Below the pieces are notes generated by a model that made no database searches, was not told the origin of the DNA, and saw only the letters and a list, made by a program, of their open reading frames with translations. The position numbers were made by a program, and so were the translations under genes. DNA of 64,000 bases from Roseivirga sp. (GTDB lineage: Bacteria > Bacteroidota > Bacteroidia > Cytophagales > Cyclobacteriaceae), in assembly GCA_018402485.1 (NCBI GenBank), contig JAGYIY010000002.1:124001-188000 (forward strand), given 5' to 3'. How positions within the stretch are numbered: position 1 is the first letter of the stretch; each line of letters starts with the position of its first letter. This document shows positions 18,124 through 18,677 of this stretch, one piece after another.

Positions 18124-18196
18124 AGCCTCCTGTCGGGATCGAACCAACGACCTACTGATTACAAGTCAGTTGCTCTACCAGCTGAGCTAAGGAGGC
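18124..18196 (-). tRNA. tRNA-Thr (anticodon UGU)
   Basis: The minus strand folds as a standard cloverleaf: acceptor GCCTCCT/AGGAGGC with U73, D-arm GCTC...GAGC, anticodon arm CTGACT-TGT-AATCAG, T-arm with GTTCGATCC. CCA is not encoded. It reads ACA threonine codons. The first 18 nt of this tRNA recur in each unit of the tandem array upstream of it. Confidence 0.95.
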
Positions 18197-18677
18197 TTAT
18201 TATATGTCAAAGTTTAGGTTTCGCTCAGCTGGTGCTTACCCTGCTGGCTGGCCTGTTCCTAAAATCATCCATCTGGATGATTTCTTTACGTCACATCCTC
18301 AGCTGAGCTAAGGAGGCTTATTATATGTCAAAGTTTAGGTTTCGCTCAGCTGGTGCTTACCCTGCTGGCTGGCCTGTTCCTAAAATCATCCATCTGGATG
18401 ATTTCTTTACGTCACATCCTCAGCTGAGCTAAGGAGGCTTATTATATGTCAAAGTTTAGGTTTCGCTCAGCTGGTGCTTACCCTGCTGGCTGGCCTGTTC
18501 CTAAAATCATCCATCTGGATGATTTCTTTACGTCACATCCTCAGCTGAGCTAAGGAGGCTTATTATATGTCAAAGTTTAGGTTTCGCTCAGCTGGTGCTT
18601 ACCCTGCTGGCTGGCCTGTTCCTAAAATCATCCATCTGGATGATTTCTTTACGTCACATCCTCAGCTAAACTAAGGA
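18179..18677 (-). repeat. Four 121-bp tandem repeats carrying the 5' end of tRNA-Thr
   Basis: Unit starts on the plus strand (CAGCTGAGCTAAGGAGGC) fall at 18179, 18300, 18421 and 18542, exactly 121 bp apart, with a degenerate fifth start at 18663-18677. Units look identical by eye. In RNA sense (minus), each unit ends with tRNA-Thr positions 1-18. Each also has a perfect hairpin AAATCATCC-AGAT-GGATGATTT (first at 18262-18283) and an 11-nt segment ACCAGCTGAGC (first at 18223-18233) complementary to the tRNA D-arm at 18177-18187. 121 is not a multiple of 3 and no frame stays open, so it is non-coding. Confidence 0.95.

Follow-up and report, generated by a model that had tools for sequence, protein, structure and literature searches.

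Tandem repeats containing fragments of tRNA genes have long been known from tyrT, where the rtT repeats of Escherichia coli carry the 3′ end of the adjoining tRNA. Fragments of tRNA genes have also been described at tRNA-attached integrative elements (PMC9897764). A second paper gives GTAG and CGTC as the tag classes of REP sequences and places the palindromic element RPE-1 inside a Rickettsia gene (PMC3733652). Here, we analyse a tandem array beside the tRNA-Thr(UGU) gene in a 64,000-nucleotide stretch of Roseivirga sp. DNA (positions 124,001–188,000 of contig JAGYIY010000002.1, referred to as the window). The array probably consists of four tandem copies of an insertion unit that is built on a non-coding, REP-like palindrome, R1, with the 5′ end of the tRNA restored and the unit amplified in tandem. 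Genomes, contigs and loci are designated by the letters G, C and L, respectively.

The initial annotation of the locus described four perfect 121-bp tandem units, each carrying the first 18 nt of tRNA-Thr, and both points are borne out. TRF reports a repeat at 18179–18677 with a period of 121, 4.1 copies and 99% matches; a second repeat search finds the same register with units 100% identical, and direct reading agrees that 18179–18662 is made up of four 121-bp units with 100% identity between them. Read in the tRNA sense, a unit comprises R1 (62 nt), 15 nt antisense to the tRNA D-arm (T′), a 26-nt spacer and tRNA nucleotides 1–18, which read GCCTCCTTAGCTCAGCTG at the end of every unit in the window (Table 1). 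The order along the locus, again in the tRNA sense, is the promoter-like motif, a decayed copy of tRNA nucleotides 1–18 and then the four units, the tRNA copy of the last one forming the beginning of the intact gene. This is the layout first proposed, with the 5′ end of the tRNA copied and the array on its 5′ side. The tRNA was annotated at 18124–18196; ARAGORN sets its lower boundary at 18123, making it one base longer. What had been taken for a decayed fifth unit at 18663 is instead the decayed copy of tRNA nucleotides 1–18, after which no fifth unit follows.

Table 1. Features of the array and its surroundings (window coordinates)
Feature	Position	Strand	Evidence or remark
tRNA-Thr(UGU), intact, at the promoter-distal end of the array	18123–18196	−	ARAGORN; Rfam RF00005, 70 bits
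Unit nearest the tRNA	18179–18299	−	Repeat search, R1 model, unit extraction
R1 of this unit	18238–18299	−	
T′ of this unit, AAGCACCAGCTGAGC	18223–18237	−	
Spacer of this unit	18197–18222	−	
tRNA nucleotides 1–18 of this unit	18179–18196	−	
Second unit, identical	18300–18420	−	R1 at 18359–18420
Third unit, identical	18421–18541	−	R1 at 18480–18541
Fourth unit, identical	18542–18662	−	R1 at 18601–18662
Decayed copy of tRNA nucleotides 1–18, AATTCCTTAGTTTAGCTG, at the promoter-side edge of the array	18663–18680	−	
Promoter-like motif of tRNA-Thr, TTTG-N19-TATATTTGCA, upstream of the entire array	18716–18748	−	Conserved in relatives
Gene for DUF349-domain protein, upstream neighbour	18783–20942	−	PF03993, E 1.4e-78; synteny in relatives

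The window belongs to a draft assembly of 17 contigs that is 84.6% complete, which limits the certainty of the exact number of units. A pure assembly artefact is an unlikely source of the array because other genomes carry arrays of the same layout (two units in G196, G169 and G105; three in G249), and in some of these the units show a few base differences. Within its own genome, the unit has full-length matches at these four places alone, together with two further matches of 16–22 nt (E 0.27 and 0.94), and it has no match among phages and plasmids at E 1e-5. At the array locus (L007), the tRNA alone scores above the Rfam gathering threshold, accompanied by one sub-threshold match on the antisense of the tRNA. 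Across 16 loci, only tRNA reaches the gathering score. A separate tandem repeat in the window, at 15015–15319 (131 bp, 2.3 copies), contains the palindrome AATAGCCACATCGTGGCTATT and the flanking inverted stretches TTAACATAAATGC and GCATTTATGTTAA, and gives no match to the R1 model at E 0.1.

A motif resembling TTTG-N18/19-TAnnTTTGCA, which we take to be a promoter of the Bacteroidota type, lies upstream of the tRNA in 22 of 23 compared loci; in the exception, G149, the second half of the motif alone was found. The DUF349 gene adjoins tRNA-Thr in relatives too. Given that the motif is the promoter, its position beyond the array implies that the array is presumably the 5′ leader of pre-tRNA-Thr. 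The motif in the window ends 519 nt before the tRNA, a distance that takes in the four units. Among the 15 other genomes of the genus, the gap is 15–31 nt in 12 and 81–87 nt in G018, G004 and G006, where it contains a stretch resembling the start of a tRNA, CCTCCTTA. Another genus of the family provides both an empty site and filled ones: the motif is 13 nt from the tRNA in G122, which has no unit, 133 and 135 nt away in G234 and G261, which have one unit each, and 259 nt away in both G169 and G196, which have two. Comparison of these sites reveals that the promoter-like motif stays upstream while the leader lengthens by one unit length per unit, and that a direct repeat of the tRNA segment flanks the insertion with the tRNA restored. 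In units outside the window, the spacers bear no visible resemblance to the native leader.

The same arrangement is found at other tRNA genes. A pattern in which a tRNA D-arm is joined to the start of R1, with up to three mismatches, was matched in 12 of 390 genomes of the family, against three matches for a backwards control; G184 was dropped, there being no tRNA at its match. R1 follows tRNA nucleotide 18 in 11 genomes of six genera, the window included, with one to four units, and the homologous arrays that the initial annotation had suggested looking for in related genomes were found as units of the same layout in 10 other genomes. They precede tRNA-Thr(UGU) in the window (four), in G196, G169 and G105 (two each) and in G234, G261 and G149 (one each); tRNA-Thr(CGU) in G249 (three) and G169 (one); and tRNA-Gly(CCC) in G169, G249 and G131 (one each). 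The contigs of G097 and G173 break off at a tRNA-Thr-like start. Among 22 units extracted by searching for the nucleotide-18 junction with mismatches allowed, R1 follows ..GCTCAGYTG, which ends at nucleotide 18, in every case except the decayed first copy in the window, even though some of the tRNA copies ahead of R1 show decay or an interruption. The unit is 119–123 nt long in 17 of the 22, the others measuring 116, 151, 153, 156 and 192 nt; one unit of G105 retains the lower stem but has the upper hairpin replaced by TCCCGATAGCTATCGGGA. No conserved reading frame or integrase was found in the units (116–192 bp). At tRNA-Glu (G003, G013 and G292), it is the 3′ end that is copied, and R1 points in the opposite, antisense direction. 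In relatives, decayed tRNA-Thr-like stretches adjoin tRNA-Thr in L010, L013, L017, L018, L023 and L024, several of them interrupted by other palindromes.

R1 itself is palindromic, and compensatory changes between its paired bases are strong. In an alignment of 18 copies, 33 cells are changed on both sides compared with 8.5 in shuffles, and the signal is lost when the partner is slid by 1–3 columns. Its 62 nt contain two paired regions and a tandem G·A step, and it has no Rfam match. A first search, for which the tRNA part of the unit was left off, matched 30 of the 390 family genomes; at least three of the matches (L044, L052 and L055) look like chance in context. The R1 covariance model finds the element in 174 of the 390 sampled Cyclobacteriaceae genomes, representing 49 of 84 genera; in 24 of 241 genomes in an order-level sample, 16 of the 24 belonging to the family; and in 10 of 296 genomes in a phylum sample, five of the 10 from the family and one weak. 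These large searches score few candidates per genome; selected genomes scored more fully yielded 40 copies in G153, 26 in G062, 16 in G511, four in G169 and two in G196. The window's own genome has three further strong copies besides the array. Among 30 loci chosen as the best-scoring R1 match in each of 30 genomes, which are not a random sample and some of which (L071, L073, L082 and L097) contain the query itself, 26 have no tRNA gene within 300 nt; the other four have one, with R1 in the sense orientation at three and in antisense at one, tRNA-Glu. The initial proposal of an undescribed family holds, but its defining part is the palindromic R1 rather than the tRNA fragment.

In 16 of 100 contexts, compared with 0 of 500 shuffles, a stretch of 12 nt or more from the 5′ flank of R1 is directly repeated in the 250 nt that follow the element. 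The contexts were copied by hand from 150 rows, with overlapping loci and some weak or cut matches left out, and are those left after duplicate removal. All 16 repeats end no more than 2 nt from the R1 border, and they include tRNA sites, the CRISPR-like array of G083 and non-tRNA tandem arrays. R1 copies within a locus lie on the same strand in the window, in G153, in L106, L107 and L110 and in others; G062 contains five pairs in opposite orientation (contigs C3, C136, C210, C290 and C314), four of them 23 nt apart. On contig C1 of G153, at approximately 3.053 and 3.077 Mb, loci L108 and L109 are arrays of 195-bp units, each unit with two R1-like elements arranged head to tail, and no frame of at least 80 aa is present within 400 nt of them.

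The course of events that we favour is as follows. R1, the mobility and function of which we infer, would be a REP-like palindrome, mobile or formerly mobile, that inserted into the D-loop, either of the tRNA itself or of a redundant copy in tandem with it, and duplicated the tRNA 5′ segment. In the filled genomes, comparison places R1 exactly after nucleotide 18, in the D-loop, and the unit ends in a new copy of tRNA nucleotides 1–18, so that the tRNA body again has an intact 5′ end. The direct repeats of 18 nt and 121 bp could then have given rise to tandem copies, by unequal recombination or by slippage; the latest growth was probably recent and took place in the window genome, since all four units there are identical. 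In the transcript, T′ may pair with the tRNA copy ahead of R1 (T), closing each unit as one hairpin domain. Such domains would keep the false 5′ ends off the real tRNA during transcription, and RNase P would then trim the leader. We count several points against this explanation. No transposase or integrase was identified for R1, nor was R1 caught in the act of moving; base changes between T and T′ are one-sided; outside the window, the spacers do not visibly resemble the leader; T′ is predicted to misfold the tRNA; and R1, which lies in antisense at tRNA-Glu, is in sense at all 15 of the protein-gene and intron loci considered below, which an inert palindrome does not explain.

Alternatively, the units might be what is left of tandem copies of tRNA-Thr that lost their 3′ portions and came to house a palindrome; R1 would have had no part in making the array, and recombination would account for the rest. 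Tandem tRNA-Thr copies do occur (G018, G012, G044 and G052), as do decayed copies accompanied by other palindromes next to the gene (L010, L013, L017 and L018), a tRNA-Thr body in decay on the upstream side of the array in G105, and tRNA-Gly anticodon-arm sequence after R1 in G131. Against these stand the breakpoint at nucleotide 18 and the near-equal unit length shared by tRNA-Thr(UGU), tRNA-Thr(CGU) and tRNA-Gly(CCC), the conservation of the T′ arm and the lack of any visible tRNA 3′ part in most units. We regard duplication followed by decay as rather unlikely.

A different light is cast by the copies of R1 in protein genes and introns. Of the 30 best-hit loci, 11 lie by Rhs-like frames (labelled by NCBIfam Rhs_assc_core, over cut-off in seven of eight frames, with Pfam giving at most a sub-threshold RHS_repeat) and four by group II intron reverse transcriptases (labelled by Pfam); another 11 were given no assignment. 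R1 is in the sense orientation at 15 of the 15 Rhs and reverse transcriptase loci, which come from 11 genera, with four of the Rhs loci from one genus. Two R1 insertions are common to G106, G270 and G230, and the 201-codon Rhs segment between them, the frame of which starts and stops inside R1, has dN/dS values of 0.10–0.15 and is under purifying selection. The next Rhs segment, of 90–92 codons, is weaker in this respect (0.37–0.38). A selected segment of this kind could result from loss of R1 from the message, from its bypass, or from gene conversion in which intact copies act as donors. A plain inert palindrome fits poorly with these data because of the uniform sense placement and the selected R1-bounded segment. 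R1 might be an RNA-level mobile element that enters transcripts in sense, is copied back into DNA and is removed or skipped in the messages of protein genes, allowing its hosts to survive; the transcripts entered would be tRNA precursors, group II introns, CRISPR repeats and Rhs mRNAs, and the tRNA array would be one outcome. The 15 of 15 sense placements and the dN/dS of the 201-codon segment support such an element without proving it, and we judge it unlikely.

Further features of these loci deserve mention. R1 interrupts Rhs genes at common positions in two genera, mostly at YDxxG motifs (L110, L111, L119 and L081, in G106, G036, G270 and G230). A fixed rule of splicing or of in-frame translation of R1 in Rhs genes was rejected, since the frames vary by copy, with either read-through or a stop. 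Integron-like cassettes came under consideration since, at the loci inspected for this, all R1 copies of a locus lie on one strand; they were rejected because the DNA separating R1 copies in Rhs genes and introns has the appearance of host sequence, normally ordered. Several same-strand copies lie within group II intron sequence in L112 and L118 (G144 C89 and G085 C11), one of them, in L112, where by eye the reverse transcriptase frame seems to be without its middle. In L107 (G083 C6, 3802–5378), R1 occurs in several CRISPR-like repeats between different spacers, and part of the repeat recurs after each R1.

Returning to the tRNA arrays, T′ follows R1 in the units, and its pairing with T is standard in 93.5% of cells in an alignment of 12 of the 22 units, from which near-duplicates and units with large inserts were left out. 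The changes in this alignment are exclusively one-sided, with no double changes. In the tRNA-Thr(CGU) unit of G169, which lies outside the alignment, CAACTG in T′ faces CAGTTG; L191 has a weak T′ and L166 a partial one. In equilibrium folding, a weak guide for repeats, the tRNA alone folds properly with an acceptor-pair probability of about 1; adding one or two units lets T′ pair with the true 5′ end of the tRNA and takes the probability to 0, and with four units it is 0.57. On this model, the tRNA could form only if T′ were first captured by the upstream T, the transcription of which precedes that of the tRNA. The predicted pairing of T′ with the tRNA could be a nuisance that T′ itself solves, the reading that we favour, or a switch. 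In the latter case, T′ would serve as an anti-D-arm that switches pre-tRNA between folded and misfolded states, and the number of units would tune the supply of tRNA-Thr. Conservation of T′ and of unit length would accord with such a leader, as would the loss of the acceptor stem in the folds of the window and of the G234, G196 and G169 leaders while the empty G122 leader keeps it. The units are nevertheless patchily distributed, occurring in 11 of 390 family genomes and in none of the other same-genus genomes searched; unrelated tRNA species carry them; and the folding evidence has the weakness already mentioned. We find a functional leader distinctly improbable.

A further candidate driver comes from Neisseria, in which Ssn is reportedly a GIY-YIG single-strand nuclease and NTS its repeat. 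R1 could by analogy be the cognate site of a nuclease of this kind or of a RAYT transposase. Near-identical GIY-YIG genes precede the three further R1 copies of the window's own genome by about 150 bp, each of these R1 copies being joined to a tRNA-Asn copy in decay, and in G260 a Y1 match is 1.3 kb from R1. We also counted in favour the report that RAYT subclass 2.6, found mostly in Bacteroidetes, is flanked by atypical structures (PMC6006769). However, G062, with its 26 R1 copies, lacks any Y1 match at E 1e-5, and its only GIY-YIG match falls in a frame of 600 aa, the size of UvrC; GIY-YIG counts are similar in genomes without an R1 match, meaning those with none under the stricter filters of the family search, which also define 'R1-free' in the Y1 comparison; Y1 genes occur in R1-poor genomes (28 matches in G031); and a single-sequence search found no relative of the GIY-YIG protein near R1 in the other examined loci. 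Neither RAYT-type Y1 transposases nor GIY-YIG nucleases track R1; we rejected both as its driver and consider a cognate-site role very improbable. At L106 (6301–12500; C1:340300–346500 of the window's own genome), the order GIY-YIG gene, decayed tRNA-Asn copy, R1 occurs three times; the decayed copies have TCCCGATTCATCGGGA or TCCCGATGCATCGGGA in the anticodon-loop region, and an intact tRNA-Asn precedes the first GIY-YIG gene.

Finally, the + strand of each window unit contains a 35-aa open frame with an ATG and a GGAGG-like site, but the peptide is encoded by none of the 18 units outside the window, whose longest antisense ATG frames are unrelated and of 0–31 aa, and as a conserved gene it is rejected as wholly implausible.

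If the insertion reading, which we prefer, is true, a tiny non-coding element that sits time and again at one nucleotide of tRNA genes, with the 5′ end rebuilt behind it, would have a means of residing in such genes without an integrase. The natural series of zero, one, two, three and four units makes the origin of tandem repeats of tRNA fragments testable, and the sense-only placement of R1 in protein genes, together with the selected R1-bounded segment, raises the question of how the interrupted genes are read.

To our knowledge, neither a tRNA D-loop placement nor a tandem array has been reported for the Rickettsia palindromic elements. These resemble R1 in being palindromes inside genes, and belong to another phylum. 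No description of the R1 element was found in the open-access literature searched; interspersed palindromic elements are known, and it is R1's way of living in tRNA genes that was not found described. The likeness to rtT noted at the outset was a fair lead, in that both are tandem repeats with a piece of the adjoining tRNA. The window array has no RtT Rfam match up to E 0.1 at L007, and it differs from rtT in carrying the 5′ rather than the 3′ end of the tRNA, in lying on the upstream side and in having a palindromic core common to other loci and genera; the tRNA-Glu arrays of G003 and G292, which copy the 3′ end, are closer to rtT. Integrative elements at tRNA genes share with the window unit the direct repeat of the same tRNA part at both ends, the restored tRNA and the potential for tandem copies, but the unit is only about 120 bp long, has no integrase or conserved frame, restores the 5′ part and has its junction in the D-loop. 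REP/RAYT systems and REPINs are, like R1, small structured palindromes present in many copies per genome in some species, and the five opposite-orientation pairs of G062 recall REPINs, whereas copies elsewhere share a strand. R1 differs from REP sequences in having, by eye, no conserved GTAG or CGTC tag at either end of the 18-copy alignment, in its lack of a Y1 link, in its 62-nt form with two paired regions and a tandem G·A step, and in its residence inside genes and at the D-loops of tRNAs.
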